Shown here in pieces: positions 75-17,805 of a DNA stretch of 64,000 nucleotides. The stretch's first letter is position 1; each line of letters begins with the position of its first letter. Made by a program: the position numbers and the translations under genes. The notes beneath the pieces were generated by a model. That model was not told the origin of the DNA, made no database searches, and saw nothing but the letters and a program-made list of their open reading frames with translations. Source of the stretch: a virus; the IMG/VR virus record IMGVR_UViG_3300029258_001212, positions 1-64,000 of that record; one strand, 5' to 3'.

Positions 75-546
75 GTACGTGGGGCTCCCCTATGCCAGTG
101 GCTCGGAAACATCCATGGAGGCGGCTAAGAAGTCGGCTGGCAGCAAGAAGACGATGCGGGACCGTGTTGCGATCTTCGAGTTCATTTGCGGCAGCAATGG
201 TGTCTCTGATGATGACATTGACGTGGCGCTAGGGCTCGGCTTGAACACGATCCACGCAAGGCGCCGGGAGCTACAGCTTCACGGGCTGATCTTCCCCAGG
301 GGAAAAGGCTTCACGCGCAAGAACAAGCGGGCCGTACTGTGGCGTCCAACCGGAAAGCCATTTCCGGACCCATGGACAACACCCCCCAGGGCGAAAGCAC
401 AGCGGCCTGAAAGCAAGGCTTTCCGGGCGGCCGTGGCGGAGATCCGGGAGATGTACCTGCGAGACCGCGCAGCCACGGGCAACACGTTGAGCGACAACAC
501 AATCAAGGTTCTCCAGTGGATGGAGGGACCAAAAAAGGAACGGTGA
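64..546 (+). CDS. Winged-helix-like small DNA-binding protein
   Basis: This 160-aa protein starts at ATG 64; an in-frame GTG at 55 would add three residues. The middle (about residues 35-90) reads as a helix-turn-helix or winged helix: a helix ending FICG, an acidic turn, the segment NTIHARRRELQLHGLI as a candidate recognition helix, then a basic wing (GKGFTRKNKR). The C-terminal 50 residues are basic and helical. Such a protein probably binds DNA and may regulate phage or host genes, but no specific family is recognised. Its end overlaps the next gene's GTG start by four bases. Confidence 0.7.
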   Translation: MRDEYVGLPYASGSETSMEAAKKSAGSKKTMRDRVAIFEFICGSNGVSDDDIDVALGLGLNTIHARRRELQLHGLIFPRGKGFTRKNKRAVLWRPTGKPFPDPWTTPPRAKAQRPESKAFRAAVAEIREMYLRDRAATGNTLSDNTIKVLQWMEGPKKER

Positions 547-809
547 ACACGATGGCAGTAGCGAAGAACATCCCCGAAGAGTGCCCCCGGTGTCGGGAGC
601 AGATCCAGACTATGGCCACCATGACAACGGCCGGGGTGAACAGGACGACCGGCATGGTGACCCGCGCGCAACCCAGGTGGCTCTGCTCTGAGTGCGGCCA
701 CCAGTGGGAGGTGGACCCCGACCTGGCGCAGCTCTGGCTCGCCGGTCTCTTCGATGGGCCCAGGAGCGTGGCCCCCAAGCGACACGTGCGGCGCGCGGGC
801 GCAAGGTGA
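543..809 (+). CDS. Small zinc-ribbon protein
   Basis: This 88-aa protein is taken from GTG 543, which overlaps the previous stop (GTGA); ATG 552 is the alternative. Two CxxC pairs, CPRC near the N-terminus and CSECGHQW about 40 residues later, make a classic four-Cys zinc ribbon. A short basic tail follows. The fold suggests nucleic-acid or protein binding. Function is unknown. Confidence 0.65.
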   Translation: MNTMAVAKNIPEECPRCREQIQTMATMTTAGVNRTTGMVTRAQPRWLCSECGHQWEVDPDLAQLWLAGLFDGPRSVAPKRHVRRAGAR

Positions 810-816
810 CCCGAAC

Positions 817-1029
817 GTGAGTGCGACCTGTTGGCGGTGCGGGAAAGCTCCACAGCGAGCTCGCGCCACATGCGACCGGAACGAGGACATGAACGATGCC
901 CTCGAGGGGTGCAGCATCTGGTGGAATTGCTGTGGGGCCTCCTGGCCGGTGGCCGAAGACGAGGTGCCCGATTGGTGCCGGACATACCAGGCGGCCCATG
1001 ACGGCGTACCCTATGACAGCGCGCACTGA
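817..1029 (+). CDS. Small Cys-rich protein
   Basis: This 70-aa protein starts at GTG 817, seven bases after the previous stop. It has a CWRC pair near the N-terminus plus further Cys residues (WWNCCGASW and DWCRT), so metal binding is likely. It is the last gene before the first copy of the recurring 70-bp intergenic element, which begins two bases after its stop codon. Confidence 0.55.
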   Translation: MSATCWRCGKAPQRARATCDRNEDMNDALEGCSIWWNCCGASWPVAEDEVPDWCRTYQAAHDGVPYDSAH

Positions 1030-1030
1030 C

Positions 1031-1103
1031 TTGGCATGGCTGTTGCTTCTGCTTAATTAACCTTATCTCCCTCTGTGGGAGATAAGAGTCAAGAGGGTGT
1101 CCG
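1031..1103 (+). promoter_or_regulatory. Recurrent element copy A: sigma54-like promoter plus hairpin
   Basis: TGGCATG (1032-1038) and TTGCTT (1043-1048) are spaced exactly as in sigma54 -24/-12 promoters, with GG and GC separated by ten bases. A TTAATTAA core (1053-1060) follows. Then comes a perfect 9-bp inverted repeat, TTATCTCCC at 1063-1071 and GGGAGATAA at 1077-1085, around a 5-base loop. On the opposite strand AGTCAA (1087-1092) reads TTGACT, a -35-like hexamer. The gene at 1104 begins directly after it. Four other copies exist at 28.9, 38.4, 49.6 and 53.4 kb. Confidence 0.6.
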
Positions 1104-1385
1104 ATGGCAGACTTTGAAAAACTGGGTCGCGAGATCGGGCGTCTCGTGGAGACAAAACAAAAATCGTATGGCGATGCGTTCGGGCGAAGTGGCCAGGTGA
1201 TGCGTACCCTGTATCCGGAGGGTGTCTCTCCGGACCAGATGGACGATGCCCTGGCAGTGGTGCGCGTGGTGGACAAGCTGTTCCGGATTGCCACGGACAG
1301 GGACGCCCTGGGCGAGTCTCCCTGGAGAGATATTGCAGGGTATGGACTGCTCGGGTGGGCCCGGGTGGAAAGCGAGCGAAGATGA
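1104..1385 (+). CDS. Nmad1/DUF1599-like small protein
   Basis: This 93-aa protein carries the pattern KQKSYGDAF, then VVDKLFRIA, then SPWRDIAGYGLLGWA. That order (KxxxYGD, DKLxRI, D-x-AGYxLL) is typical of DUF1599, also called nucleotide-modification-associated domain 1, an all-alpha MazG-like group. In phages such proteins accompany nucleotide metabolism or base modification. It is the first gene downstream of the sigma54-like element and overlaps the next gene by ATGA. The family call rests on motif recognition only. Confidence 0.65.
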   Translation: MADFEKLGREIGRLVETKQKSYGDAFGRSGQVMRTLYPEGVSPDQMDDALAVVRVVDKLFRIATDRDALGESPWRDIAGYGLLGWARVESERR

Positions 1386-1612
1386 AGTTCAAGATCACGA
1401 TGAAGGATCCGGATGGCGTCTACGAGTGCGTGGAGGATGCTGTCACGATGAGCCTCAAGGGACTTGAGCTCTCCGAAGACGAGCGCGAGGCCGTCATGGA
1501 GAAGCGCAGGGAAGCCGTCATGGAGGCCATCAGCAAGTGGTTCGAATACGGTGAGTGCCTGAACGTGGAAGTGGACACGGACGCTGGAACCATCGAAGTG
1601 CTGTCCAGGTAG
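1382..1612 (+). CDS. Small acidic protein, unknown
   Basis: This 76-aa protein starts at ATG 1382, overlapping the previous stop. It has a beta-rich start (KFKITMKD), a central charged helix (EDEREAVMEKRREAVMEAI) and a beta-strand tail. No motif is recognised. Tight coupling to the Nmad1-like gene suggests co-translation. Confidence 0.65.
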   Translation: MKFKITMKDPDGVYECVEDAVTMSLKGLELSEDEREAVMEKRREAVMEAISKWFEYGECLNVEVDTDAGTIEVLSR

Positions 1613-1644
1613 GACCAGGGCGCGAGCGATGATAGGATCGATCC

Positions 1645-1959: not shown

Positions 1960-1960
1960 C

Positions 1961-2131
1961 GTGAGCTGGGTTGCCTTACGCAAGCTCCTCGAGGTGTTCA
2001 TTCTCGAGGCGATCATGCTCTACAGGGCATTTTCAAGGATCGGTGAAGTGGTGAGAAACGAGCTGGAGTACCGGCGCAACCGGAGGGCCTGGGAGCGGGC
2101 GATCCGCGATGGAGGGCCGTGGCCATGGTGA
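1961..2131 (+). CDS. Short basic helical protein
   Basis: This 56-aa protein starts at GTG 1961, just after the previous stop and preceded by GGAGGGTGAC. The N-terminal 30 residues are hydrophobic/amphipathic (LLEVFILEAIMLY) and the rest is Arg-rich (ELEYRRNRRAWERAIR). It could associate with a membrane or act as a nucleic-acid-binding helix. It overlaps the next gene by seven bases. Confidence 0.5.
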   Translation: MSWVALRKLLEVFILEAIMLYRAFSRIGEVVRNELEYRRNRRAWERAIRDGGPWPW

Positions 2132-2655
2132 TCCTCGAGTGCCCCAGGTGCGGCGAGCGGATGCGTCCGGTGGTGGCGGAAGGTCGCCTCGGGTTCCAGC
2201 GGGCGCTGGTGCCTGCGTTCCGGTGCGACTGCCATCGGGCGGACTACCCCACCGGGAATGAGGACGAGCTCCGCGGGTGGTGGGCGCTGGTGTTGGCGGA
2301 TGGTTCCCCGGCGGACGTGCCCCCTCGAGCTCGCCGGCCAGGTGGGTCGGTGGTGGTGGGCGAGGGGCAGCCGGATGGCTCCGTGGTGGGCAATTTCGAC
2401 ATGATGATCGGCTCCACGATCCCGGTGTGCCGGGTGTGCCACGATCTCCTCGAGGAGACCTTGAACGTCCAGGAGGACGGCTGGTATTGCCGGCGGTGCG
2501 ACCGGTACGAGATGGACCCGATGACTAGGGCGGAGATTCCTGGTTTCGGGGTGGGCAGTTCCGAGCACATGGGTGCGTGGCCGGTGCCGAAGGCCACCTT
2601 GGAGCTGCGGTGCCTGGACGGCGGCAAGGACAAGGACGATGGCAAAGAAACGTAA
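2125..2655 (+). CDS. Double zinc-ribbon protein
   Basis: This 176-aa protein starts at ATG 2125. The first metal site is CPRCGERM with FRCDCH about 25 residues on. The second is CRVCHDLL with WYCRRCDRYEMD. A Gly/Pro-rich linker separates the two. It probably binds nucleic acid or RNA polymerase-type partners. No specific family is recognised. Confidence 0.7.
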   Translation: MVILECPRCGERMRPVVAEGRLGFQRALVPAFRCDCHRADYPTGNEDELRGWWALVLADGSPADVPPRARRPGGSVVVGEGQPDGSVVGNFDMMIGSTIPVCRVCHDLLEETLNVQEDGWYCRRCDRYEMDPMTRAEIPGFGVGSSEHMGAWPVPKATLELRCLDGGKDKDDGKET

Positions 2656-2812
2656 GCCACCGAAGGCGCCAAAGCGCTACGCTCCCCCGAGGAAGCCGTG
2701 GCGCAAGATGAAGTGCCCCAAGTGCGGCAAGGTGATCTGGCGCAAGCCCTACGTGTCGGACGCAGCCAAGTGCCATGACTGCGGCTTTCAGGGGAACCTG
2801 GTGCTGGCATGA
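2639..2812 (+). CDS. Small basic zinc-ribbon protein
   Basis: This 57-aa protein has a very Lys/Arg/Pro-rich N-terminus (about residues 1-24) and a C-terminal zinc ribbon, CPKCGKVIW and KCHDCGFQG. It resembles minimal ribosomal-protein-like zinc ribbons and so may bind RNA. It overlaps the gene upstream by 17 bases and the next by ATGA. Confidence 0.7.
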   Translation: MAKKRKPPKAPKRYAPPRKPWRKMKCPKCGKVIWRKPYVSDAAKCHDCGFQGNLVLA

Positions 2813-3107: not shown

Positions 3108-3425
3108 ATGAGCGAAGAGAACGAGAAAGACCCGAACGCGGACGTGGAGAACCCATGGGAGGTGCCCGTAGGCCACATGGTGCCCACCATCACGGCAGCG
3201 TGCCCCCACTGCAAGGCTACCCTCGGGGTGCCGATCCAGATTCAGCCCGTGGGCGTGAACCAGGAGAACCAGGTGGTGGCCCTCGAGTCCGAGGAGCAGA
3301 TCAAGGCCCTCAAGGGGGTGCTCCTGGTGCTCGCCAGCCCGGTGCAGACTTTCATTTGCCCGCAGTGCAGCGGCCAGGGCGCGCCAGAGGACAATGAGCC
3401 CAAGCGGATCATCACGCTGTCATGA
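3108..3425 (+). CDS. Zinc-ribbon protein
   Basis: This 105-aa protein starts at ATG 3108, preceded by GGAGGATGAC. An acidic N-terminus is followed by a ribbon with CPHCKATLG at about residues 32-40 and CPQCSGQG at about 85-92. The roughly 50 residues between the Cys pairs are beta-rich. It overlaps the next gene by ATGA. Confidence 0.7.
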   Translation: MSEENEKDPNADVENPWEVPVGHMVPTITAACPHCKATLGVPIQIQPVGVNQENQVVALESEEQIKALKGVLLVLASPVQTFICPQCSGQGAPEDNEPKRIITLS

Positions 3426-3766
3426 AACGCACCATCATGACAAAGGAAGAGTGGGAAGCCCGGGGCACCGAGCTGTTCGGGGAGAACCAGATGAAGTGGC
3501 GATTCGTCTGCCCGAGCTGCGGCTACGTCCAGTCCGTGGAGGACTTCAAGGAGCTCCACGATCAAGGGGTAGACGTGCAGCCCAGCACGGCCTACTTCTC
3601 CTGCATCGGGCGCTGGAACGGTCACATGGACAACGATGCGTTCGGCGGCAAGTCCCCATGTAACTACGCGGGCGGGGGCCTACTGCGGATCAACCCCGTG
3701 CTGGTGAAGGATGGCGAGCGTGAGCACCAGGTGTTCGCATTCGATGAGGGACAACATGACGGCTGA
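3422..3766 (+). CDS. VVA0879-like zinc-binding phage protein
   Basis: This 114-aa protein begins with an EEWEARGTELFG helix, then FVCPSCGYVQSVEDFKEL, then AYFSCIGRW and PCNYAGGGLLRINPV. That order matches a small family seen in phages and plasmids (annotated VVA0879-like) with four conserved cysteines. Function is unknown, and metal binding is likely. It is among the better recognised genes of the array, but the family name is from memory. Confidence 0.75.
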   Translation: MKRTIMTKEEWEARGTELFGENQMKWRFVCPSCGYVQSVEDFKELHDQGVDVQPSTAYFSCIGRWNGHMDNDAFGGKSPCNYAGGGLLRINPVLVKDGEREHQVFAFDEGQHDG

Positions 3767-4123: not shown

Positions 4124-4335
4124 TCGTCGCTGCGGTGCTGATCTTGGTGCTCGCTGCGATGGTGGCTGGCCTGTGGGTGTGGTCCGTGGCGGAGCGGCGC
4201 CGGGCAGAGGCGGTCAAGGACTACCTGGAGCGTGCCGAGAAGCGTGGCTACCAGGTGCTCCGCGTGGGGTCCGAGAGCCGGTACAAGGTGATTGCAGTTC
4301 CACCACCGGAGCCAGACAAGGAGCGATGGAATTGA
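4120..4335 (+). CDS. Single-pass membrane protein with cytoplasmic tail
   Basis: This 71-aa protein has an N-terminal hydrophobic segment (residues 2-21) followed by basic AERRRAEAVKDYLERAEKRG and a beta-rich tail (YQVLRVGSESRYKVIAV). The layout is an N-anchored protein with a small cytoplasmic domain. Role unknown. Confidence 0.6.
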   Translation: MIVAAVLILVLAAMVAGLWVWSVAERRRAEAVKDYLERAEKRGYQVLRVGSESRYKVIAVPPPEPDKERWN

Positions 4336-4628
4336 AACCCAAGCGGCGCACCGTGAGGTGCTGGTTTTGCGGGAACAAGAAGCGGCGCGTGCCGTCCACC
4401 AGGGGGATCCCCCCGAGCTGGCTGGACGAGCGCGGGCGCGTGAAGGTGATCCTCCGCAAGCGGACCGTGGTGCCCTACGGTGCGTGCGGGGCGATGGGCC
4501 ACCCCTGGGAGCCAGATGGGTGCCGACAGCCGATGCTACTGCCCAAGGACGTGCGCTTTGTTCTGCGAGCGGCTCTCCAGTATGACCGGGGCGGCGGCAA
4601 TCACAGGAGCGAATACGATGTGTGCTGA
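4326..4628 (+). CDS. Basic Cys-containing protein
   Basis: This 100-aa protein has CWFCGNKKRRVPS at the N-terminus and two further Cys (GACGAMGHPW, DGCRQ), which could complete a zinc site. Basic and beta-rich. It overlaps both neighbours by about 10 bases. Confidence 0.6.
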   Translation: MELKPKRRTVRCWFCGNKKRRVPSTRGIPPSWLDERGRVKVILRKRTVVPYGACGAMGHPWEPDGCRQPMLLPKDVRFVLRAALQYDRGGGNHRSEYDVC

Positions 4629-4884
4629 GTACGTGATCGATGACCAGGCGCTGTTCGATGCGGCGCTGGCGCGGCTCGAGGGGAAGGAGCCGCCTTCGGT
4701 GCGCGCGGGACAGAGCGGGGCGGTGGGGTTTATCAACAACGTGGAACAGAGATTCGACCACGATGGCGCGGTGGAGTCTATGGACGTGACGATGCGCGTC
4801 CGGTTCACCGACAGGAACGTGATGGCCATTGGCCGGATGCTGGACGCCATGGCCACGGTGGAGATCATGGAGCGAAAGCGATGA
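4618..4884 (+). CDS. Small unknown protein
   Basis: This 88-aa protein starts with a helical segment (DQALFDAALARLEG) followed by a beta-rich half (SMDVTMRVRFTDRNV). No Cys pairs and no recognised domain. It is coupled by ATGA to the next gene. Confidence 0.6.
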   Translation: MCAEYVIDDQALFDAALARLEGKEPPSVRAGQSGAVGFINNVEQRFDHDGAVESMDVTMRVRFTDRNVMAIGRMLDAMATVEIMERKR

Positions 4885-5243
4885 AGTGCTCACAGTGCGG
4901 AGACGATGGCCTGGACACCAAGTGGGACGGCACGTGGGCGGGCGCGCCCGTGTGCGAGACCTGTGCCGGCGTGCTGAAAATGGTGAGCAAGGCCAATACC
5001 AGGTTCGCCAGCGGGGATCTGAGCTCACCCCTCATCGGGATGCCATTCAGCGCGGCCCAGGAGATTGCCGCGGAGGCCACGAAGCGGGCCAGGGAGTGGC
5101 ACGCGGAGAACCCGGGGCAAGGTGTTGGCCCTGGTGACTGGGTTGACGTGGCCCAGAGGGTGTGGGGCGTGGACCTGGTGGCTCACATGGAGCGAGGGAG
5201 GCAGGACGTGTTCACCCCAGGGAGGCGAGACGACGGATGCTGA
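4881..5243 (+). CDS. Zinc-finger protein with helical tail
   Basis: This 120-aa protein has CSQCGDDGL and VCETCAGVL forming one zinc site in the first 32 residues. A helical region follows (AAQEIAAEATKRAREW), with a basic C-terminus. Function unknown. Confidence 0.65.
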   Translation: MKCSQCGDDGLDTKWDGTWAGAPVCETCAGVLKMVSKANTRFASGDLSSPLIGMPFSAAQEIAAEATKRAREWHAENPGQGVGPGDWVDVAQRVWGVDLVAHMERGRQDVFTPGRRDDGC

Positions 5244-5734
5244 TCACCATTACAGAGGGCTGGAACGGCCGCGAGGTGGCGCGTGGGGAGATCCTGGAAG
5301 GCAACGTGGAGGTGGTGACGGCGACGGGCAGGGAGGACAGCTACAGCTCGCCAGAGGAGCTCCTGGTGGCCTATCCGCCGAGCATGTTCTGGATTCTATC
5401 GGCACCAGACCACTGGGAACTCGCCTTGGACCCGTTCCACCCTGATGCGTTCAAGGGGACCCCAGCGGAGGGTCTGGTGGCAGATCCCGAATCCTCGAGG
5501 AGCGTGGTGTGGCTGGCCACCGACAGCTACGGCAACGCGGTGGGCGTGGCCGGGGTCCAGGACCTACATCCGTCCCCGCCGGGCCACCCCTACGCCAAAG
5601 GTGAGCCCAGGGAGCTCGAGTGCGAGGTGTGCGAGCGGGGGTTCCTGAGTGACAGCTACCAGGAGGAGCCGGTCTGTCCGAAGTGCCAGCGGCCCGTGTC
5701 AAGGGTGATGCTGGCGGTGGAGGCCAAGGCGTGA
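5237..5734 (+). CDS. Protein with C-terminal zinc ribbon
   Basis: This 165-aa protein starts at ATG 5237, inside the previous gene's last codons. The first 120 residues are mixed alpha/beta without a recognised motif. The C-terminus holds a ribbon, CEVCERGFL and VCPKCQRPV. Unknown role. Confidence 0.65.
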   Translation: MLITITEGWNGREVARGEILEGNVEVVTATGREDSYSSPEELLVAYPPSMFWILSAPDHWELALDPFHPDAFKGTPAEGLVADPESSRSVVWLATDSYGNAVGVAGVQDLHPSPPGHPYAKGEPRELECEVCERGFLSDSYQEEPVCPKCQRPVSRVMLAVEAKA

Positions 5735-5919
5735 GATCCGAGACCACAGCGGAGGGCCAGTGCTACCCGGCGTGGATCCCATGCAACAACTGCGAGGACT
5801 ACTGGTGCCGGATCCACGATGCCCACGTTTTCGAGTGCGGGTGCTCCCCAGTGGAGGACTGGGGCGACGTGGACCCGTACTGCCAGGGCGGGCCACCGTG
5901 TCCCGAAAGGAGGCCGTGA
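5731..5919 (+). CDS. 62-aa Cys-rich protein
   Basis: The start is GTG 5731 in a GTGA overlap. Eight cysteines in 62 residues (IPCNNCEDYWCR, FECGCS, YCQGGPPC) suggest one or two metal sites. No family recognised. Confidence 0.55.
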   Translation: MRSETTAEGQCYPAWIPCNNCEDYWCRIHDAHVFECGCSPVEDWGDVDPYCQGGPPCPERRP

Positions 5920-6152
5920 TGGCCAAGCGAGGCGTTCACAAGACGCTACAGCGCGGAGGTGTGTGCTGGGACTGTGGGAGACCGGGCGCAAAGCCGGTCT
6001 ACAGCCTGAGCAAGAACAGGGACGTGGATCGCATCGGCTGGGAGTGCGAGTGCGGCCGGTGGTGGCCGGTGAAGGCGGAGGACTTCAAGGCGTGGCACCA
6101 GGCCATCGAAGGTAACCCCCTCGGGCTGCCACCGAGCGGAGGAAAGCCATGA
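5919..6152 (+). CDS. Small zinc-ribbon protein
   Basis: This 77-aa protein has CWDCGRPG and ECECGRWW about 25 residues apart, a compact ribbon with aromatic residues beside the second pair. It is preceded by AAAGGAGG. ATGA overlap with the next gene. Confidence 0.65.
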   Translation: MAKRGVHKTLQRGGVCWDCGRPGAKPVYSLSKNRDVDRIGWECECGRWWPVKAEDFKAWHQAIEGNPLGLPPSGGKP

Positions 6153-6505
6153 ACAGGAAGCTGCTATCCGTGAACATCGGGCCCCTTTCCGTGAACATCT
6201 ACCGCCTGGACGGGTACAACCATCGCCCGGCGCTGTGGTGGAGCCCACAGGTGACCCACCTCCGGCCGCTGCCCGGGGTGACGATCAACATCCCTCGCCG
6301 CTGGTGGCCCGGGCGCAAGGACGGCTACCGCCAGTGTGGGTTCTGTGGCCAGGTGCGCTGGATGGAGGGCCCGCCAAACGGGGCGTGTCCCGAGTGCAAG
6401 CGAACGCTGGACTGCATGGAGACCTACATGAAGGGGCCACCATGGTGGCCTGAGATGGTACACGAAGCCTACCAGCGGGCCACGGGAAGGATGTGGAAGC
6501 GATGA
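6149..6505 (+). CDS. Zinc-ribbon protein
   Basis: This 118-aa protein begins with a beta-rich stretch (LLSVNIGPLSVNIYRLDG) followed by a zinc ribbon (CGFCGQVRW, ACPECKRTLDC) at about residues 63-88 and a helical tail. The N-terminus repeats the string SVNI twice. Function unknown. Confidence 0.65.
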   Translation: MNRKLLSVNIGPLSVNIYRLDGYNHRPALWWSPQVTHLRPLPGVTINIPRRWWPGRKDGYRQCGFCGQVRWMEGPPNGACPECKRTLDCMETYMKGPPWWPEMVHEAYQRATGRMWKR

Positions 6506-8343
6506 GCAAGAAGTGGAGCGGCAAGCAAGCTGAGCCGAGCTGCCCGGAGTGCAGGGTTGAGCTCGAGATCGCCGGACACCTGGACTGGTGGCTGTGCCCC
6601 AAGTGCGGCAAGGAGTGGCGCCAGGCGGGTATGCGCCTTGAGGAGATCCCTCCGCCCCAAGATCACGGTGGCATCACTAGCTTGGCCGACATGGTTCACC
6701 GGGAGCTCTCCGCGGCCCTGAACAGCCCCGAGCTCCAGGCGGCCAGGGAGCACGTTGGCCTCAAGCCCACAGTGCCCGATGAGGAGATCTGGGAGGCGAT
6801 GAACGGGGCGCGCGAGCTGGTGGGCCTCGGGCCCATGGAAGGAATCGCCTACGATCCGCTCAAGGACACCGAAAGCCGATCACACTGCTACCCGGAGCAG
6901 TGCCCAGTGGGGTGTGGGACAACGCTGGCGCGGGTGAGCGAGCCGGGCAAGGAGATCGTGTGGAGGTGCCCGGAGTGTACCTGGAGCGGGACGGACCAGG
7001 ATCGCCTCGAGTACCTGGGCTCCGAGGTAGAGGACGCCGTGGTGGAGCGGCTACACCACAGCGGTGCCCAGGTCGAAACGGTGCGACTGAGCAGATCGGG
7101 CGCCCAGGTGCCTATCCAGGAGCACGGGTACTGCCCGGAGTGCGGCACTGGGATGAACCGCGACAAGTCCCCGCGCGGCTGGGAGTGCAAGTGCGGGTGG
7201 ACCGGCGGGACGCCGCTGGCTTACCAGGTGAGCTTCCCTGTGGACGGGGTGGATTTCGGCATGAAGTACGCACCACAGGAAGACAAAGAGATCCCGGTGG
7301 CGCGAGTGGGCCTCGGGGACGATGGCACCGTGACCCTCGAGGCCAGCAAGATGACCCTGGGAAGCCCGGACGGCGAGCCAGTGGTCAATGTGCCCCTCGC
7401 CATGGACGTAGCCCAGGCGGCGCGCGTGGCCCAGGGCGGCAAGGGTGGCCTGGTGGGCCACGTCGTCTTGGGTGACGGCGTTGTGCTCCCGGTGATCATC
7501 CCGGGTATGGAGCTGGGCATCATGTCGCCCATGACCCCATACACGCCGCTCCAGGCGAGCATCGTGAAGGTGCGGGACGATGGGGGCGCAGACGTGAACT
7601 GGGAGTCAGTGGACCACCTGGTGGGCTACGCCAAGGACCATGACACACTGGAGCTCCACACCCATTCGCGGGGCGGTGAACCCTTGTCCTTTGAGGATGT
7701 GAAGGATGTGGCTGTCCGCATCGTGGAGGAGATGGACCAGGCCACCCGGGACAAGCTCTACCTCACCCACGATGGCCAGCCGTGCCCAGGTACGTGCGTG
7801 ACGCTGGCCACCGAGCTCGAGGATGCCCGGGCCGAGCTCAGGGAAGCCAAGTCGGGCAAGGTGGACTGCCAGGTGTGCGGGGACAACGGCTCCAACGGGC
7901 TCTGTCCAGCGTGTGGCCGGTTCCAGACGCCGGACACGGCTGCCCAGGTGCGCGAGCGGCTGGTCAAGACTGTTGGCCGGCTGTACGAGGAGAACGGGCG
8001 CCTCCGGGATCAGCTCTACCCACCACCCGGAAAGCCGGTGCTGGACGGCGAGCTGGACCCGTACACCCTGGTGGACAGCGTGCTACGGAACGGCTGCCCG
8101 GAGTGCGGCAAGCCGGTGATGATAGAGGCCCAGGTGCCGGAGGGTGGCATTGACTTCGCCTGGGCATTCACGTGCGCGGGCCTGGGGCGCGGGATCGGAA
8201 CGTGCGGCTGGTGGGCCATCAGCGTGGTGAGCCTGGCGGACGCGGCAAGGGTGGCTCTCCGCCACCCGGCGGCAACCAAGGAGGACAGCGATGATCAAGC
8301 AGGCGACGAGCATCATGATGCGCCTGGCCCAGATTCAGATTGA
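6502..8343 (+). CDS. 613-aa protein with about five zinc ribbons
   Basis: This is by far the largest gene of the first 18 kb. Zinc sites are spread along it: CPECRVEL with CPKCGKEW (residues 14-35), a second pair around CPVGCGTT and CPECTW, a third around CPECGTGM and CKCGW, a fourth around CQVCGDNG and CPACGR, and a fifth around CPECGKPV and GTCGWW near the C-terminus. Between the third and fourth lies a roughly 200-residue beta-rich segment without Cys pairs. The C-terminal 20 residues are acidic. The arrangement suggests a modular binding scaffold for nucleic acid or protein. No enzyme motif is seen. Confidence 0.75.
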   Translation: MSKKWSGKQAEPSCPECRVELEIAGHLDWWLCPKCGKEWRQAGMRLEEIPPPQDHGGITSLADMVHRELSAALNSPELQAAREHVGLKPTVPDEEIWEAMNGARELVGLGPMEGIAYDPLKDTESRSHCYPEQCPVGCGTTLARVSEPGKEIVWRCPECTWSGTDQDRLEYLGSEVEDAVVERLHHSGAQVETVRLSRSGAQVPIQEHGYCPECGTGMNRDKSPRGWECKCGWTGGTPLAYQVSFPVDGVDFGMKYAPQEDKEIPVARVGLGDDGTVTLEASKMTLGSPDGEPVVNVPLAMDVAQAARVAQGGKGGLVGHVVLGDGVVLPVIIPGMELGIMSPMTPYTPLQASIVKVRDDGGADVNWESVDHLVGYAKDHDTLELHTHSRGGEPLSFEDVKDVAVRIVEEMDQATRDKLYLTHDGQPCPGTCVTLATELEDARAELREAKSGKVDCQVCGDNGSNGLCPACGRFQTPDTAAQVRERLVKTVGRLYEENGRLRDQLYPPPGKPVLDGELDPYTLVDSVLRNGCPECGKPVMIEAQVPEGGIDFAWAFTCAGLGRGIGTCGWWAISVVSLADAARVALRHPAATKEDSDDQAGDEHHDAPGPDSD

Positions 8344-8719
8344 GCTCATGGAGCTCTCACAGGACTACGCGCGGGACGGATCGAAGCATGGCTCCGAGGC
8401 GTGCGACACGGCTCGGCTGCACGTGAACGAGGCCCAGAGGACGATCCACATGAACCTCAAGCCCCCTGGGTTCCCAAAGCTCTCCACGCTGCCCAGCGTG
8501 GGCGATCCGTATCGGTTCCAGGCGCCGTGGCACACGGGCTACTTCGAGGGGCCGGAGAGCCCTTGCTCATGCCGCGGGATTGTTCACACGACTCCATCGG
8601 TGCAGTCCCAAGAAGTCCAGGTGCAGTGTGGGGCCTGCGGTGGTCGATGGACTTGGAATTCCGATGAGCATAGGTGGTATGTAGACTTGGCGATCATCGA
8701 AACATGGCCGGAGGAGTAG
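8291..8719 (+). CDS. Protein with N-terminal helix and zinc site
   Basis: This 142-aa protein starts at ATG 8291, which has a good GGAGG site eight bases upstream but overlaps the previous gene by 53 bases. Later in-frame ATGs near 8315 would shorten the overlap. The N-terminus is helical. The second half has CSCRG and CGACGGRWTW, a likely zinc ribbon. Confidence 0.6.
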   Translation: MIKQATSIMMRLAQIQIELMELSQDYARDGSKHGSEACDTARLHVNEAQRTIHMNLKPPGFPKLSTLPSVGDPYRFQAPWHTGYFEGPESPCSCRGIVHTTPSVQSQEVQVQCGACGGRWTWNSDEHRWYVDLAIIETWPEE

Positions 8720-9419: not shown

Positions 9420-9660
9420 TGCATGGGTAATCGCACACATGCGCCAGTGGAGGGCGGCTGGCCTGTTCGATTGGCCCAGTGAAGCGTGCGGGGTGGAACA
9501 ACACAAGCGATTCGTGGAGTGGTGCTATAGGCATGGCCATGTGCCCACCGATGACCCAGAGGGTGTTGCCCATGAGTATGCCGACGCCCTGGAGCGAGGT
9601 GATGTTCCCATGTTCTGGGGAATCAGTAAAAATGGATTCCTAGTGAGGGTGCCGGAATGA
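9394..9660 (+). CDS. Small unknown protein
   Basis: This 88-aa protein starts at ATG 9394, overlapping the previous gene by 26 bases. It is rich in Trp and His (DDAWVIAHMRQWRAAGLFDW). A central helical region is followed by a short beta tail. Two lone Cys only. No family recognised. Confidence 0.55.
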   Translation: MHKKDWKDDAWVIAHMRQWRAAGLFDWPSEACGVEQHKRFVEWCYRHGHVPTDDPEGVAHEYADALERGDVPMFWGISKNGFLVRVPE

Positions 9661-10148
9661 AACAAACCAAAACGAATGCCCATCCAATAAATGGCGAACG
9701 ATGCCAGGTGTGTCCGGATTGCGGGGGGAACAAGCGTCTTCCGTGTGAGTGTGTGCCGCGCGATGTTCCCGTGGAAGAGATGGTGAGTGACCCCGGGTGT
9801 CAGGTTTGCGGAGGGGAAGGCGACAATTGGTGTGCAAGGTGCGCTGGGACTGGTGCGGTTTTGTGTGATCAAGATGAGATCACTATTGATGAAGATCTGC
9901 TCAGGGAACAGATTGCCGCAATCAAGATCCCCGGCCTGGATGTGATGGAAAAAGACGTGGCCGATCCGGTGGACGTGGAGAAGTACATCCGCGAGCTCCC
10001 CATGGACTCCCTGAGCGACCGGGAGCGGACCCTGGTGGCCGGCAACATCCGCGGGTTCGCCATGGAGGTGCGCCAGGCGTGCAAGGACAACGGGCCCGGG
10101 AATCTTGAGCCGTGTCCTGAGTGCGGAAGGAGCTGCACCTGCCCATGA
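9657..10148 (+). CDS. DnaJ-type zinc-finger-like protein
   Basis: This 163-aa protein has repeated CxxCxGxG-like motifs: CPDCGGNKRLPCEC, CQVCGGEG and CARCAGTG in the first 70 residues, as in the DnaJ Cys-rich domain. A helical middle follows, then a last CPECGRSCTC at the C-terminus. No J-domain is present, so it is not a DnaJ co-chaperone. It may bind unfolded protein or nucleic acid. Confidence 0.65.
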   Translation: MKQTKTNAHPINGERCQVCPDCGGNKRLPCECVPRDVPVEEMVSDPGCQVCGGEGDNWCARCAGTGAVLCDQDEITIDEDLLREQIAAIKIPGLDVMEKDVADPVDVEKYIRELPMDSLSDRERTLVAGNIRGFAMEVRQACKDNGPGNLEPCPECGRSCTCP

Positions 10149-10444
10149 AAACCATTTTCTGCTACCAGTGCGACAAGAACACGATCCACCTCGCTGCAAG
10201 CCTGGCTTTCATGCGGACAACCAACGTGCGGGACAACAACGGGCGCCCACGGTGGGACCGGGGCGGCCCGAGCTGGGTGTGCGCGGGGTGTGGTGGCGTG
10301 ATTCCGGCCTTGCCAGCAGAGCAAGCCGAGTGGATCAAGGATTGGTTCCTGGACCCAACAGGGGTGGACTCTTGGGGCAAGCTCCGGGAGCCCATGCCGC
10401 GGTTGAGGGAGCGCCCCGAACGCCACAAGGACAAGGAACCATGA
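10145..10444 (+). CDS. Zinc-ribbon protein
   Basis: This 99-aa protein has FCYQCDKNT at the N-terminus and VCAGCGGVI at about residues 46-54, forming one ribbon. The segment between is basic and beta-rich. A charged helical tail ends the protein. ATGA overlap on both sides. Confidence 0.65.
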   Translation: MKTIFCYQCDKNTIHLAASLAFMRTTNVRDNNGRPRWDRGGPSWVCAGCGGVIPALPAEQAEWIKDWFLDPTGVDSWGKLREPMPRLRERPERHKDKEP

Positions 10445-11862: not shown

Positions 11863-12311
11863 GCGATCACAAGTGGACCGGACACCAGGGCAAGCCGTTG
11901 CCGAGCTCTCTTCGTGGGTTCAACTGGCTGGCTCCAGACAGCGCCCTGATGGCGCCAGGGGATGCGTGCTACGTCACAAAGATGGACCGCGTGGAAGCCA
12001 TGACGGCAAGCGGTGAGATCGTGCCAGTGGTGAGCGGCCAGGTGTGGAGCAGACACAAGAAGCGTTGCGGCGGCCAGGACGTGGTGGAGATCTGCTACGA
12101 CCGGGACACCGGGGAGCTACTCGCTACTGGGAGAGAGGCCAGCGACTACTACCTGAGACACGCCAGGGCGGCGAAGGAGCGGGGGCAGATCATTGCCTAC
12201 GCCAGCGGGGAGACGGACGGGTGGGACGCCATGCGGCTCCTCGAGGATCCGGACTACCGGGTGGCCTACGGCAGGTTCCGGCGCGGGACCGGAACGGGAG
12301 CGAAGCGATGA
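11859..12311 (+). CDS. Unknown protein
   Basis: This 150-aa protein has alternating beta and helical segments (EIVPVVSGQVWSRHKKRC, ASDYYLRHARAAKERG) and a basic C-terminus. One or two lone Cys only. No recognised domain. Confidence 0.6.
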   Translation: MSDHKWTGHQGKPLPSSLRGFNWLAPDSALMAPGDACYVTKMDRVEAMTASGEIVPVVSGQVWSRHKKRCGGQDVVEICYDRDTGELLATGREASDYYLRHARAAKERGQIIAYASGETDGWDAMRLLEDPDYRVAYGRFRRGTGTGAKR

Positions 12312-12679
12312 GCAACCGACCAAAGTGCGCGTTCACGGACTGCGACAACCCCGTGATGAAGGGCGAGACCACCGGGCGGCTCCTGTCCGTCTGCCGGGAG
12401 TGCTACGAGCGGGACCGGATGCTTGAATGGGAGCCATCTCGGGACACGCTGATCCTCTGCACGAAGCAGCGGGCCCATGGGGGCTATGCTCTGTGGTGGG
12501 GCCCGGAGGGCCGGGGCTACTACGCAGAACTCGAGGCGGCGGGGCGCTACACCATGGAGGAGGCGGAGTGGATCTGCCGCGGGATCGATGCCCACCCGGT
12601 TCCGCTTCGAGAGGCTATGGCCACGGCGGTGACCGTGGCCGACTACCCGATGCCACGCCAGGAAGGGAGCAACCGATAA
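12308..12679 (+). CDS. Zinc-finger protein
   Basis: This 123-aa protein opens with CAFTDCDNPV and VCRECYER, a four-Cys site in the first 35 residues. A mixed region follows (ILCTKQRAHGGYALWWG), then a helix (MEEAEWICRGI). Function unknown. Confidence 0.6.
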   Translation: MSNRPKCAFTDCDNPVMKGETTGRLLSVCRECYERDRMLEWEPSRDTLILCTKQRAHGGYALWWGPEGRGYYAELEAAGRYTMEEAEWICRGIDAHPVPLREAMATAVTVADYPMPRQEGSNR

Positions 12680-13119
12680 TGGCGATCAAGATGGTAGTGG
12701 TTTGCGACGTGTGCGGGGACGTGGGATGGAGCCAGGTGGTGACCCCGGGCCATCCGAGCCGGGCCTACGCGGCGGCCAGGGAGGCCATGGCCCTCGAGAT
12801 GAACGGCCGGCGCTGGGAGGTGGTGGACGGAAAGCTCTGTTGCTCCATCCGGTGCCGGCACGAAGCCCGGGAGCCACCCAGGTGCTCCTGCGAGCGGCCA
12901 GTGAACCCGGCGAACGACCGGCGCGGAGATGGACCCAAGTGCCTGGTGTGCGGCGGGGACATGCGGCCCCGGCTGGCCCGGGTGAAGCTGGTGGACAACA
13001 CGCTCCCAGTCGGCCACCAGAGCGAGACCAGGCGGGAAGCCTGGAAGCGGCTTCAGGAGGCCGAGCGGCTCTACAGGGCGGCCGTGGAGCGCAGCGAGGA
13101 GGCGAAGCATGGAGCGTGA
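12679..13119 (+). CDS. Double zinc-finger protein
   Basis: This 146-aa protein overlaps the previous stop by one base (TAATG). Zinc site 1 is CDVCGDVGW with CCSIRC, an arrangement seen in small zinc fingers that end in CxxxC. Site 2 is CSCERP with CLVCGGDM. The C-terminus is a charged helix (RREAWKRLQEAERLY). Confidence 0.65.
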   Translation: MAIKMVVVCDVCGDVGWSQVVTPGHPSRAYAAAREAMALEMNGRRWEVVDGKLCCSIRCRHEAREPPRCSCERPVNPANDRRGDGPKCLVCGGDMRPRLARVKLVDNTLPVGHQSETRREAWKRLQEAERLYRAAVERSEEAKHGA

Positions 13120-13528
13120 CAACCGAGTCCAGGAGCTCCTCGAGTCCATGCGAGGGAAGCCTTTGAACGGCATGTGCCGGGCGTGCTTCCTGGCCAATCC
13201 GGCCGTGGTGGAAGGAGATCCCCCCGTGGCCAGGTGGGAGCCCGGGGGCCAGCGGTGCCCGAGCTGCGGGGCCGAAGGGACACTCCACAGTGTGGCGGAC
13301 CCCACCTGGGAGTCCCCCACCAGCAAGATCATCCGGGAGTGCTTTACCGTCCAGCCCATGGCGGCCCCGGTGGACGGCGTGTTCTTCTACGAGCACAGGG
13401 AGCCAGAAGTCTGGGAGGATTGCATCCGGTGTCACGCCGTCAAGTCTGTAGATCCAATGACGAATCAGTGCCTCAAGTGCCTGAGACGAGACCCGAACAT
13501 GAAGGGTGGAACCGATGGGGCGAAGTAG
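13109..13528 (+). CDS. Multi zinc-ribbon protein
   Basis: This 139-aa protein has MCRACFLAN and RCPSCGAEG (residues about 22-55), then CIRCHAVKSVD and CLKCLRRD near the C-terminus, two zinc ribbons. The N-terminus begins RVQELLESMRG, reminiscent of the leader motif of the internal proteins, but no protease site follows, so it is not counted among them. Confidence 0.65.
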   Translation: MERDNRVQELLESMRGKPLNGMCRACFLANPAVVEGDPPVARWEPGGQRCPSCGAEGTLHSVADPTWESPTSKIIRECFTVQPMAAPVDGVFFYEHREPEVWEDCIRCHAVKSVDPMTNQCLKCLRRDPNMKGGTDGAK

Positions 13529-13844
13529 CGGACCAGGGAGCCCTCTGAGCTTCAGGTGCTGGAAGTGCCGGCGGATGGCGGCGCGGTCCGGGAGAATCCC
13601 CGACTACCGCGGGCTGTACTCGGATGCGCGGGATAAAGGCTGGGCTGGCCGGGTGCTCCTCACCGGGAAGACTAGGCCCAACCCACCCAAGAAACATCAC
13701 GCGCGGGGAGCCCGAAGCAGCGAGCTACAGCGCGAGTACGTGTGCCTGGACTGCCAGCACGTCGGGTGGAGCGCCCACATCGACCTGGCCGGGGAGGCTA
13801 TGGCGCGGGGCGGCGCGCCAGGCGGACAGGGCAAGGAGCCATGA
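13515..13844 (+). CDS. Zinc-ribbon protein
   Basis: This 109-aa protein has RCWKCRRMA at about residues 14-22 and VCLDCQHVGW at about 76-85. The segment between is basic (KTRPNPPKKHHARG) and would make a long loop. ATGA overlap with the next gene. Confidence 0.65.
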   Translation: MGRSSGPGSPLSFRCWKCRRMAARSGRIPDYRGLYSDARDKGWAGRVLLTGKTRPNPPKKHHARGARSSELQREYVCLDCQHVGWSAHIDLAGEAMARGGAPGGQGKEP

Positions 13845-14347
13845 TGAGGTACAACAGCCGAGAGGCGATTCCGAACATGGGAGTGACGGCGATGGATGCG
13901 AGGGTTGAGTGTGATTGGTGCAGCGCCTTCGTGTTGGGGGACCACGCTCCAGATGACTGGGAGGTGATACCGCCAACGCCGGGCGATTCGCTGCTCGGCA
14001 TCGCGAGCTCCCCAGGCGGCCACAAGTGCCCTGCGTGTATCAAGGCGAGCGCCGAGCGAGAGGTGCTGTCCGCTGCGAAGATGTACCCCTACGGGAGCGA
14101 ACTGGAACTCACCAAGGACGTGCGATGCGTCTACAGCGGGGGCGGCCTATCAGCAACTCCGGAGCGCCCCATCCGCGTCCAGACTTCGATGCGTGGGGTC
14201 AACCTGCGTGACGGGACGGCCTACCTGGAGTGGGTAGGCTTCACGTTCGGTGTGAAGCTCCTCGAGCTGTTCACCGGCGGGGTGATGGAGGTAGACCCAG
14301 ACGACCCAAGCAAGCTCACCGAGCTCAAGCTGGCGCCCAAGGAGTAG
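13841..14347 (+). CDS. Protein with N-terminal zinc site
   Basis: This 168-aa protein has CDWCSAFV and KCPACIKA, about 40 residues apart in the first 70 residues. The remaining 100 residues are beta-rich (IRVQTSMRGVNL, AYLEWVGFTFGVKLL). No family recognised. Confidence 0.65.
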   Translation: MMRYNSREAIPNMGVTAMDARVECDWCSAFVLGDHAPDDWEVIPPTPGDSLLGIASSPGGHKCPACIKASAEREVLSAAKMYPYGSELELTKDVRCVYSGGGLSATPERPIRVQTSMRGVNLRDGTAYLEWVGFTFGVKLLELFTGGVMEVDPDDPSKLTELKLAPKE

Positions 14348-14351
14348 ACCC

Positions 14352-14753
14352 ATGGACTGGAGAACCGAACAGCACCAGCACCTGATGGCGGCATTCAAGC
14401 GGCTCCAGGAGGACCACCCAGCGTTCCACATGGAGCTCAAGGTGCGCCTCAAGTCCGAGTACGCAGACCCAAGGCCATCGGGGCCAGACGAGAGGGATGC
14501 GGTGTTCCGTGTCCTGGGGCATGAGCGGCGCGGTGGGCGCATCAGGGTGCGAGTGCCAGACCAGAGCCGCATTGACCAGGTGGGCCTAGTCTACATGCGG
14601 TTCTATGATGGCTGGCGAACCAGGGACCACGTGCGGATCGATGGTATCGGAGACAAGGATGGGGTCTACCGGGTGTTGGGAGCTGGGCCTCACGACGAAC
14701 TTCTACTCGAGGCCATTGACTCCACCGAGCCCACCCATGGGGACACCCCATGA
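14352..14753 (+). CDS. Unknown alpha/beta protein
   Basis: This 133-aa protein has a helical N-terminus (TEQHQHLMAAFKRLQED) followed by beta-strands (RIRVRVPD, VGLVYMRFYDGWRTRDHVRI). No Cys. The start is chosen at ATG 14352, four bases after the previous stop. Confidence 0.6.
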   Translation: MDWRTEQHQHLMAAFKRLQEDHPAFHMELKVRLKSEYADPRPSGPDERDAVFRVLGHERRGGRIRVRVPDQSRIDQVGLVYMRFYDGWRTRDHVRIDGIGDKDGVYRVLGAGPHDELLLEAIDSTEPTHGDTP

Positions 14754-15094
14754 GCAACCCTGACTACAGCCAGGAGACGTGCCTCGGGTGCGTCCACTAC
14801 AGCCCCGCCTGGCCCGAGTGGGCCCGGGCGCGGGTGGACAATCAACTATACCAGCCGTGCCAGGCGCCCCTTCCAGAGCGCCCCAGCACAGACCTGGAAG
14901 ACGAGGCGTTCGATGAGGCCATGGTGGCCTGGGATGACCAGGTGGAGGCCATCAGCGGGGCAGGCCCGGGCTACAAGTGCGACCGGTTCCAGCCTACCCT
15001 CGAGTGCCGTGCGGTCCGGGCATCAGAAGAACGGAACGAAGCCCTCGCCGGGATCCAATGGGAACTCCAGGTCCGGCGTGAAGAGTACAGGTGA
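14750..15094 (+). CDS. Cys-containing acidic protein
   Basis: This 114-aa protein has CLGCVHYSP near the N-terminus and further Cys at QPCQAP, YKCDRF and LECRAV, possibly a single zinc site. The C-terminus is helical and charged. Unknown. Confidence 0.6.
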   Translation: MSNPDYSQETCLGCVHYSPAWPEWARARVDNQLYQPCQAPLPERPSTDLEDEAFDEAMVAWDDQVEAISGAGPGYKCDRFQPTLECRAVRASEERNEALAGIQWELQVRREEYR

Positions 15095-15097: not shown

Positions 15098-15550
15098 ATG
15101 AGAGAGCCACTACACGATGCGGTGCTCGGGGCCTTGGAGCGGATGCAGGGCTACGCCAGGAACTGGGGCGATGGCCACCTGCCCAGCCGGAGAACGATCC
15201 AGGGCTGGGCCGCGTTGCTCAGGGCTGGCCTGGAGCAGTCAACGCTACAAGAGGACGTGAGGCGCCTCGAGGCCGAAAGGGACAGGGCGCGGGCCGCGAA
15301 CGAGCGAGACCGATCCCTGGTAGCCGAAGCGGTATCAGCGGCGCGCAAGGTGATCAAGTCCTACGGCTGGGCAACCGAGAGCAGGGGGCCGTACTCCTGG
15401 GATGATGACGAGTACATGGCAGAATTCGGGCGCTGCCTCACGGCGCTCGAGGCCCCACTTTCGCGCCTGGACAGCGTGATCAAGGACCTATCCGACTGTC
15501 CGCAGACGCAAGCCGAAGTGATCGCAGCTCGGCTCGGAGAACAACCATGA
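15098..15550 (+). CDS. Coiled-coil protein
   Basis: This 150-aa protein has a central charged heptad-like stretch (VRRLEAERDRARAANERDR) likely to form a coiled coil, flanked by helices. The segment KVIKSYGWA is followed by an acidic loop. No domain name can be given. Confidence 0.65.
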   Translation: MREPLHDAVLGALERMQGYARNWGDGHLPSRRTIQGWAALLRAGLEQSTLQEDVRRLEAERDRARAANERDRSLVAEAVSAARKVIKSYGWATESRGPYSWDDDEYMAEFGRCLTALEAPLSRLDSVIKDLSDCPQTQAEVIAARLGEQP

Positions 15551-15915
15551 GACGACACCCCAAGCGAGCCCGGTGCTGCCCGAAGGGCGGGGACTACATC
15601 CGATGGATGACCGCGGGCGAAGCTGATGACGACGTGGACGGCTACTACATCTCCCTCCACTGCGGCTACCCGGACCCGGTGTACGAGCTGGTGACAGTGT
15701 GCCCGTTTTGCGGCGCTTCAGTGGACGTGAAGGACACCGGGACCGTGCCATGCGAGGCGTGTGCCAGCAAGGACACCTACACCGAGGTGACTGTCCCCAG
15801 GCGCGTCGGGAACGCCCAGCTCAAGGGCGGGACCCTGGTGGCGTGCCGAGAGTGCGGCTACGTGCGCCACAGGCCCTGGGGATGGCCGGCGCGGGCCGGG
15901 GAGGCAGGCCAGTGA
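15547..15915 (+). CDS. Double zinc-ribbon protein
   Basis: This 122-aa protein has CPFCGASVD with CEACASKD (residues about 52-75) and a third pair, CRECGYVRH, near the C-terminus, with additional Cys at the N-terminus (RCCPKGG). It is the shape of a two-ribbon protein. Confidence 0.65.
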   Translation: MRRHPKRARCCPKGGDYIRWMTAGEADDDVDGYYISLHCGYPDPVYELVTVCPFCGASVDVKDTGTVPCEACASKDTYTEVTVPRRVGNAQLKGGTLVACRECGYVRHRPWGWPARAGEAGQ

Positions 15916-16486: not shown

Positions 16487-16491
16487 AACCC

Positions 16492-16695
16492 ATGTTCAGG
16501 AGTACATTCTGCCGAGCCATCCTGGGTGACTTCCAGTGGTACAGGCGCTGGTACGGCGGGGTGTGGGAGCTCTGGTGGGTGGACTATCCGGTCTGCACAG
16601 CCGTCTGGCACGACGTACCAGAGCCCACCGGGCGGGGGCCAAGGCCAACTCCACTATGCCGGGGGACCCCGGTGGTGGAAGACTACAGGAGATGA
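16492..16695 (+). CDS. 67-aa Trp-rich protein
   Basis: The protein is unusually rich in Trp and Tyr in the first 40 residues (DFQWYRRWYGGVWELWWVDY). No recognised motif. A competing frame is open across the same stretch, so the call is moderate. Confidence 0.45.
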   Translation: MFRSTFCRAILGDFQWYRRWYGGVWELWWVDYPVCTAVWHDVPEPTGRGPRPTPLCRGTPVVEDYRR

Positions 16696-16698
16696 CCC

Positions 16699-16971
16699 AT
16701 GGAATGGGTAGACGAATCATCGTACAGCCGGGGGCAGCGTGGCGAGGTGGAGCCCAGCGTCTGGGAGCTCAAGGGAGCGCCAGGAAGGCTGACCGTTCAC
16801 CGCTACATCGGCCTGGAAGGCTGGTTTGTGACGTGCCGGGACCTGGATCTGGAGCGCCATGAGCTCAGGGCGCGGGGCGCGGAGGAAGCGAAGCAGGAGG
16901 CCCTGGACCTGGCCCTGGACACCATCACCAGGAAGGCAGCGGCATGGCAGCGATGCCTGGCCAGCGGGTGA
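16699..16971 (+). CDS. Small unknown protein
   Basis: This 90-aa protein has a beta-rich first half (RLTVHRYIGLEGWFVTCRDLDL) and a helical second half (EEAKQEALDLALDTITRKAAAW). No recognised family. Confidence 0.55.
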   Translation: MEWVDESSYSRGQRGEVEPSVWELKGAPGRLTVHRYIGLEGWFVTCRDLDLERHELRARGAEEAKQEALDLALDTITRKAAAWQRCLASG

Positions 16972-16974
16972 CCC

Positions 16975-17178
16975 ATGGGACGAATCTACGCCACCAGGGA
17001 GGATACGGGGGAGCGGGTGCTCCTCGAGCTCGAGTGCGATGGGTGCGGGGCGACTATCAAGCCCCACCCGGAGATCTCTTCCTCGGGCTGGGTGAAGCAC
17101 GCGGTGGGCACCACGTCGGTGGGCACCATGGAGTGGTACTACTGCCCGGAGTGCGCCCGGGCGCGGGGGCTCGGATGA
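16975..17178 (+). CDS. Small zinc-ribbon protein
   Basis: This 67-aa protein has ECDGCGATIKP and YCPECARARG about 35 residues apart, a clean minimal zinc ribbon. ATGA overlap with the next gene. Confidence 0.65.
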   Translation: MGRIYATREDTGERVLLELECDGCGATIKPHPEISSSGWVKHAVGTTSVGTMEWYYCPECARARGLG

Positions 17179-17465
17179 GCAACGGACACCAGCCCAAGGG
17201 GCCGTCCACCACGCCGCCAAAGGGATGGTGCCCCAACCCGGGTGGGACCGGCGTGCTATCGCCGGGGGACCAGGTGGCCAAGGGGAAGCGCCCCAGGAAG
17301 GTCCGGGTGGCCGTGACGCTGGACCCGGAGCTCCTCGAGCTGGTGGACCGCTACCAGGTGACCCTACAGCGGGAGCTGCCCCCAGGCGTCCAGACCAGCC
17401 GTTCCCAGGCGTTCGGTGTGCTCATCTACAAGGGCCTCGAGGCGGCCGGGGAAGAGACCCCATGA
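17175..17465 (+). CDS. Ribbon-helix-helix-like regulator candidate
   Basis: This 96-aa protein has a basic strand (RKVRVAVTLD) followed by helix PELLELVDRYQV, a loop and TSRSQAFGVLIYKGLEA. The strand-helix-turn(S/T-R-S)-helix order is that of MetJ/Arc-type ribbon-helix-helix DNA-binding proteins. It lies near the end of the small-gene array, so it could autoregulate it. Inference only. Confidence 0.65.
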   Translation: MSNGHQPKGPSTTPPKGWCPNPGGTGVLSPGDQVAKGKRPRKVRVAVTLDPELLELVDRYQVTLQRELPPGVQTSRSQAFGVLIYKGLEAAGEETP

Positions 17466-17608
17466 GCTATCGCACCAGCACCAGGAGCAACGGGGACGGA
17501 ACCGAGACCACGGCCACCAGGTGGGTCGGGTGGACTCCATGGGACACGGTGGCCACGGTGCTCTGGCTGGGCTACCTGGGGGCCGTCCTGGCCACGGTGC
17601 TTTGGTGA
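17462..17608 (+). CDS. 48-aa membrane peptide
   Basis: A polar, Thr-rich N-terminus is followed by a single hydrophobic span (TVATVLWLGYLGAVLATVLW) that ends at the C-terminus. Overlaps both neighbours by four bases. Role unknown. Confidence 0.5.
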   Translation: MSYRTSTRSNGDGTETTATRWVGWTPWDTVATVLWLGYLGAVLATVLW

Positions 17609-17805
17609 CCGTGGTGGCCGTGGTGGAGCCCGAGTGGATCGGCGGGGGACTGATCGAAGTAACCGAAGAGGACGTGCTACAGGGGGCCGTCCAGGTGGAC
17701 TGCCCGGACTGCTACGGGTGCGGTCTGATCCCTTGGCTGCCATGGGGCGCGGTAGAGGAGTGCGTGGTGTGCAAGGGCACCGGGCGCGTCTACCTGGGCC
17801 TGTAG
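17605..17805 (+). CDS. DnaJ-type Cys-motif protein, last of the array
   Basis: This 66-aa protein starts at GTG 17605 (GTGA overlap). CPDCYGCGL and CVVCKGTGR match half of a DnaJ-like zinc site, as in the gene at 9657. It ends the uninterrupted small-gene array; a 489-base non-coding stretch follows. Confidence 0.6.
   Translation: MTVVAVVEPEWIGGGLIEVTEEDVLQGAVQVDCPDCYGCGLIPWLPWGAVEECVVCKGTGRVYLGL

Follow-up and report, generated by a model that had tools for sequence, protein, structure and literature searches.

The first 64 kb of the 153,540-bp virus record IMGVR_UViG_3300029258_001212 (genome G000), here called the window, contain between positions 543 and 17805 an array of 51 small genes, all on the + strand and packed in 17 kb, in which paired CxxC motifs of the zinc-ribbon type are concentrated. 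The array is real and quantitatively extreme. Comparison with a sister phage, IMGVR_UViG_3300028920_000034 (G001; 153,114 bp, orthologues about 90% identical in amino acids, aa), showed that its genes are gained and lost as whole cassettes at ATGA junctions, and that two genes of the sister phage carry pieces of the phage's own major capsid protein (MCP). We favour with moderate confidence the explanation that the array is an accessory operon with translational coupling and hypervariable gene content, which serves as a bank of cassettes for zinc-knuckle binding microproteins; some of these may be mimics of the MCP. Both the junction-wise turnover and the capsid-fragment fusions are new relative to a preliminary description of this window. 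The principal features are:

543..17805, + strand: whole array, 51 packed small genes, 27 with CxxC and 17 with paired CxxC (shuffle control 0.8)
12308..12311, + strand: ATGA junction where G001 carries the capsid-fragment/ribbon cassette S_128016
46706..48205, + strand: MCP (Gp23 family), source of the captured fragments
41092..42804, + strand: portal protein; the array lies between portal and terminase on the circular map
140996-143059 of G000 (L004:16996-19056): terminase, 51.6 kb upstream of the portal on the circular map

The gene set was that of a codon-trained caller with three genes restored by hand. A strict pair was defined as two CxxC motifs 4-70 residues apart, and a relaxed rule also accepted CxH, HxC and similar knuckles. 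At least one CxxC was found in 27 of the 51 array genes and a strict pair in 17, counting one gene whose start was corrected to 13515; the relaxed rule admitted about 23. Shuffling each array protein gave 0.8 ± 0.9 paired proteins with a maximum of 5 in 1000 shuffles, and in the rest of the G000 genome only 12 of 185 genes are paired (Fisher p = 1e-5, calculated with the pre-correction array count of 16). Among 120 viral stretches (1.08 Mb) chosen for containing a ribbon-like DNA pattern, 130 of 1528 genes were paired and never more than 4 per stretch, the stretches being up to 15 kb. The paired-knuckle density of the array is 5-15 times that of the rest of the genome, of most relatives and of the small-gene region of phage phiCbK. 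When automatically called genes were counted in the best 17.3 kb of each genome, 13 paired genes were obtained for G000 and 17 for G001, against 8 each in the relatives G011 and G014, 6 in G012 and 0-5 in the others. The ribbon-rich trend is thus present across the wider group, and the G000/G001 pair is its extreme. Moreover, neighbouring array genes overlap by exactly 4 bp in 21 of 50 pairs, nearly all as ATGA or GTGA.

The preliminary description had counted 53 small genes, about 26 of them encoding zinc-ribbon proteins. Its coordinates, the tight same-strand packing and the diversity of the genes were confirmed, but the count is 51 called on the + strand, and 26 ribbons should be taken as an upper bound because 17 (strict) to about 23 (relaxed) of the 51 are better supported. 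The statement that the genes are too diverse for recent tandem copies also holds; almost no paralogy above noise was found among the array proteins, and recent tandem duplication was rejected as the origin of the array on this ground. The unusual density that it claimed is seen against the shuffles, the rest of the genome, the 120 viral stretches and phiCbK alike. Of the further CxxC pairs that it placed elsewhere, those at 34827 and in the genes called at 40538 and 57635 were recovered, but the protein at 25874 has one CxxC only.

Between G000 and G001 the array differs by 24 lineage-specific genes while its flanks are conserved, the pattern of a hypervariable accessory region. Of these 24 genes 12 have CxxC motifs, compared with 33 of the 185 elsewhere in the genome (p 9e-4), and the new ribbons therefore derive from a ribbon-rich pool and not from local copying. 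The G001 cassette S_128016 sits exactly in the ATGA overlap joining 11859-12311 and 12308-12679, with an ATGA on each side, and S_132522 begins in the ATGA overlap preceding the orthologue of 6502. In addition, an exact 32-bp repeat including the ATGA bounds S_125141, and the 12-bp repeat TGACCGATGGGG bounds S_126385; the core of this 12-bp repeat, ACCGATGGGG, is present as a single copy at the corresponding site of the window. Recombination at the junction repeats would be the simplest reading. Modules were also found in new contexts. In G001, S_127561 combines the N-module of 12308-12679 with the C-module of 15547-15915, and the counterpart of the 613-aa gene 6502-8343 lacks about 125 residues that include two ribbons. 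The distant relative G009 has the ribbon of 6149-6505 as a free-standing protein of 41 aa (E-value 4e-10). At the place where the window has 1382-1612, G001 carries genes judged by eye to be DNA-methyltransferase-like and phosphoribosyltransferase-like (L019:2399-4365; G001 139763-137797).

All core proteins were compared with the array proteins of both phages, reversed and shuffled sequences serving as controls. The sole clear source of captured pieces was the phage's own MCP, and no other core protein was detected in the array above the shuffled decoys beyond the MCP and its beta domain. In S_128016 (152 aa, L019:14146-14604) residues 2-110 match MCP 128-243 (E-value 3.7e-18, 39% identity) and the C-terminus is a CxxC ribbon, and in S_136621 (140 aa, L019:5541-5963) residues 76-136, which follow a Cys-rich part, match MCP 24-88 (E-value 5.9e-8). 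A clean MCP profile gave E-values of 4.5e-19 and 2.9e-7 for these two proteins and 0.0025 for the window gene 13109-13528; when the called proteins of 13 related phages were compared with this profile, N-terminal MCP pieces appeared only in the G000 and G001 arrays. With S_128016 as query no free capsid fragments were found in 13 other relatives. A tree puts S_128016, which has a long branch, together with its own MCP (support 87/99), and gives no placement for S_136621. The first 20 residues of S_128016 are MCP-specific, whereas its beta part is a domain also present in sheath and tail proteins. A Foldseek search with the model of S_128016 returned nothing at E < 0.001, and a P1 head protein (E-value 0.056, template modelling (TM) score 0.44) is a hint only.

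A third piece of the MCP is suggested by 13109-13528, in which an 18-residue stretch around QPM.AP, placed between two ribbons, is 55.6% identical to the MCP and maps between the S_136621 and S_128016 pieces along it. The match has E-values of 0.0025-0.04 in searches and 7e-6 one-to-one, on its own the level of decoys; one profile search gave E-values down to 3e-4 for shuffled sequences. As a separate observation, the capsid protein, the tail sheath and two tail-region proteins share one beta-rich domain (46706-48205, 61188-63353, L001:18910-19872, L002:1741-2775). A supposed paralogue of the N-half of the MCP at 85741-86775 came from a contaminated profile and was discarded, pairwise comparison showing the beta domain only.

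The G000 record is probably a complete genome in circular assembly because positions 1-144 are identical to 153397-153540, an exact terminal repeat of 144 bp, and the window starts within a small-gene region whose first part lies at the other end of the record. Besides a portal and a head maturation protease, the genome encodes a Gp23-family MCP (PF07068, E-value 6.7e-69) and a contractile sheath (PF04984), and because these last two are both present the uncultured phage is assigned from its predicted proteins to the T4-type (gp23-type) myoviruses. A search for its host against bacterial genomes gave no match. No relatives of the array were found in the DNA of isolated phages, except for a 1% match to a Pantoea phage gene. 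Terminase and portal are about 51.6 kb apart in G000 and G001, in comparison with 0-7 kb in nine relatives, and the array and the block at 18-41 kb lie between them. This location argues against simply assuming early expression of the array.

In the explanation that we favour, small genes with stop-start overlaps (ATGA) would be gained, lost and fused singly at the junctions, and recombination between short repeats around the start codons probably drives the exchange of cassettes. Zinc-ribbon microdomains, which form a stable fold at 30-40 residues, would be the dominant currency of the array and its favoured scaffold, and each product would most likely be a small binder gripping a target of the host or of a rival phage. 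A ribbon joined to a piece of the phage's own MCP could then compete for the binding partners of the capsid protein. The capsid pieces in the ribbon genes of the sister phage argue that the partners are at least partly those of the capsid protein rather than nucleic acid, and suggest that some array proteins compete for MCP partners, among which could be host factors, capsid-sensing immunity and the capsid lattice of the phage itself or of a rival.

Several points weigh against this explanation. About half of the array genes are without any CxxC, and since only two genomes carry the full array the turnover rests on one genome pair. Both firm capsid chimeras are in G001 and none that is firm is in the window. 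Structure prediction was poor for the ribbon of S_128016 and, from an alignment of two sequences, gave an AlphaFold model of low confidence for 13109-13528 (predicted local distance difference test, pLDDT, 57.8). The zinc sites rest on sequence motifs, and the function proposed for each array protein is likewise a reading of sequence.

The strongest alternative, although an unlikely one, is a host take-over set: the array proteins would be made early and their ribbons would bind host RNA polymerase, the ribosome or nucleic acid, in the manner of many early proteins of T4. It is a dense small-gene region of the type which in T4 holds such genes, the protein 2639-2812 is weakly like a Zn-ribbon RNA-binding family and 17605-17805 like anti-TRAP (both below cut-offs), and one gene, 17175-17465, is repressor-like. 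Nevertheless, no significant match to RNA polymerase- or ribosome-binding families was found among the array proteins, the array separates terminase and portal, which are neighbours in relatives, and the sister genes contain capsid pieces. The preliminary description had proposed a set of metal-dependent host-interaction or nucleic-acid-binding factors. The proteins are diverse, selected and probably metal-binding, and host interaction or nucleic-acid binding may be among their roles, but no array ribbon belongs to a function-tested family.

Less probable again would be late proteins associated with the virion or capsid, which would bind the head lattice or scaffold and possibly be packaged. 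The locus between TerL and portal, the origin of the pieces in the N-terminal region of the MCP and its beta part, the recurrence of the beta domain in sheath and tail proteins and the CxxC knuckles in the non-array protein 34827 would agree with such proteins. However, there are only two firm capsid cases among the CxxC genes of both phages, and the high gene turnover is unlike that of virion genes.

The ratio of nonsynonymous to synonymous substitution rates (dN/dS) against G001 is 0.24 in array genes with CxxC, 0.34 in those without and 0.20 in the rest of the genome, and the array genes are under purifying selection. Knuckle cysteines are kept in 82 of 84 cases as opposed to 2217 of 2480 for other residues, cysteine being the best conserved residue between the array proteins of the two phages. 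A gene nursery, in which most members would be recombination debris under weak constraint and without current function, could explain the fast turnover, the MCP fragments and the truncated ribbons in G001, but it is already strained by this purifying selection and by the conserved knuckle cysteines, and we rate it marginally below the virion proteins. Zinc binding by the array proteins is predicted from their motifs; a Pfam search of the ribbons gave sub-threshold matches only, and in NCBIfam a single CxxC array gene, 3422-3766, was above the curated cut-off (VVA0879 family, NF041591, E-value 3.3e-29). Almost the whole array is thus without a match among curated families.

The Gol region of T4 gp23 activates Lit (PMC3014915) and CapRel is activated by capsid proteins (PMC9712102), and following these known capsid triggers the array pieces could be decoys that titrate or block capsid sensors such as Lit or CapRel-type proteins. 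An expressed trigger could, however, activate the sensor instead of blocking it, and the match of 13109-13528 is weak by the E-values given above. By alignment MCP 78-107 is the putative Gol equivalent, and S_136621 (to MCP 88) and 13109 (MCP 98-115) would presumably overlap its two ends. A Gol/Lit-type capsid peptide is recognized by EF-Tu binding and Lit activation. Decoys are the least probable of the alternatives, and it is just as doubtful that the ATGA junctions are joining sites which fuse ribbons to own-MCP pieces into changing capsid mimics that block capsid-sensing immunity or rival head assembly.

New anti-host and anti-defence proteins of phages come mainly from accessory regions, the construction of which is poorly understood. 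The present locus shows gene-by-gene cassette turnover with translational coupling kept and one cheap fold dominating, and in the sister phage the recruitment of capsid-protein pieces into small ribbon genes. Should the capsid-derived proteins indeed target capsid sensors or the capsids of rivals, they would represent phage effectors of a new, self-derived class.

Some known members of the hyperplastic or early small-open-reading-frame regions of T4 inhibit host functions or defences. Such regions of T4-type phages resemble the array in their dense same-strand small genes, mostly unmatched and varying between close relatives; however, T4 is not dominated by one fold, whereas a third to half of the array is zinc-knuckle and two sister genes have own-capsid fragments. 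The early region of Caulobacter phage phiCbK (JX163858) is equally packed, with about 87 small genes and start-stop overlaps, but has paired CxxC in only 2 of 87. The VVA0879 family concerns one array gene only. In the T4 Gol/Lit protease system a capsid segment is active on its own (PMC3014915) and the G000 MCP is a Gp23 homologue, but the array segments are placed in separate ribbon genes. Satellite capsid-remodelling proteins (e.g. PLE, PMC10945586) are alike only in concept, capsid assembly being the target of a small protein; the array pieces, in contrast, derive from the phage's own capsid protein.

Individual genes of the array, all on the + strand, include the following.

543..809: 88-aa ribbon (CPRC..CSEC), about 91% in G001
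817..1029: 70-aa Cys-rich protein, related to 5919-6152 (E-value 3e-4)
2125..2655: 176-aa protein, three CxxC
2639..2812: 57-aa basic zinc ribbon, weakly like Zn-ribbon RNA-binding PRK14890, below cut-off
3108..3425: 105-aa ribbon
3422..3766: 114-aa CxxC protein, VVA0879 family
4326..4628: 100-aa Cys protein, identical in G001
4881..5243: 120-aa ribbon
5237..5734: 165-aa protein, ribbon at C-terminus
5731..5919: 62-aa Cys-rich protein, 8 Cys
5919..6152: 77-aa ribbon (CWDC..CECG)
6149..6505: 118-aa protein with ribbon module, free-standing in G009
6502..8343: 613-aa multi-ribbon protein, 7 CxxC; G001 without the two-ribbon block
8291..8719: 142-aa protein, C-terminal ribbon; ribbon end lost in G001
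9141..9419: 92-aa ribbon, absent in G001
9657..10148: 163-aa protein, 15 Cys; by eye its CxxCxG repeats resemble those of the DnaJ zinc domain
10145..10444: 99-aa ribbon, possible distant paralogue of 543-809
12308..12679: 123-aa protein, N-module 1-47 common to chimeric G001 gene S_127561
12679..13119: 146-aa protein, two CxxC, 9 Cys
13109..13528: 139-aa protein, four CxxC, dN/dS 0.08; residues 80-97 resemble MCP 98-115 (suggestive)
13515..13844: 109-aa ribbon, start corrected from 13575
13844..14347: 167-aa ribbon, absent in G001
14750..15094: 114-aa CxxC protein, absent in G001
15547..15915: 122-aa protein, three CxxC, C-module common to chimeric G001 gene S_127561
15957..16208: 83-aa CxxC protein
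16975..17178: 67-aa ribbon, 97% in G001
17605..17805: 66-aa ribbon, weakly like anti-TRAP/DnaJ zinc domains (below cut-off), absent in G001

Inside the array, 10441-10833 encodes a DUF7768 protein (Pfam 2.1e-11) without CxxC. Near its end the small protein of 17175-17465 matches a transcriptional-repressor PHROG (7.9e-7) and is a candidate regulator. Sigma70-like promoters were searched for and none was found. A 490-bp gap with imperfect repeats (17806-18294) separates the array from the next module and may be a control region. Downstream of the array there are further Cys-rich proteins (27399-27872, 27869-28462 and 39927-40541), which by eye have lipoprotein-like signal peptides.

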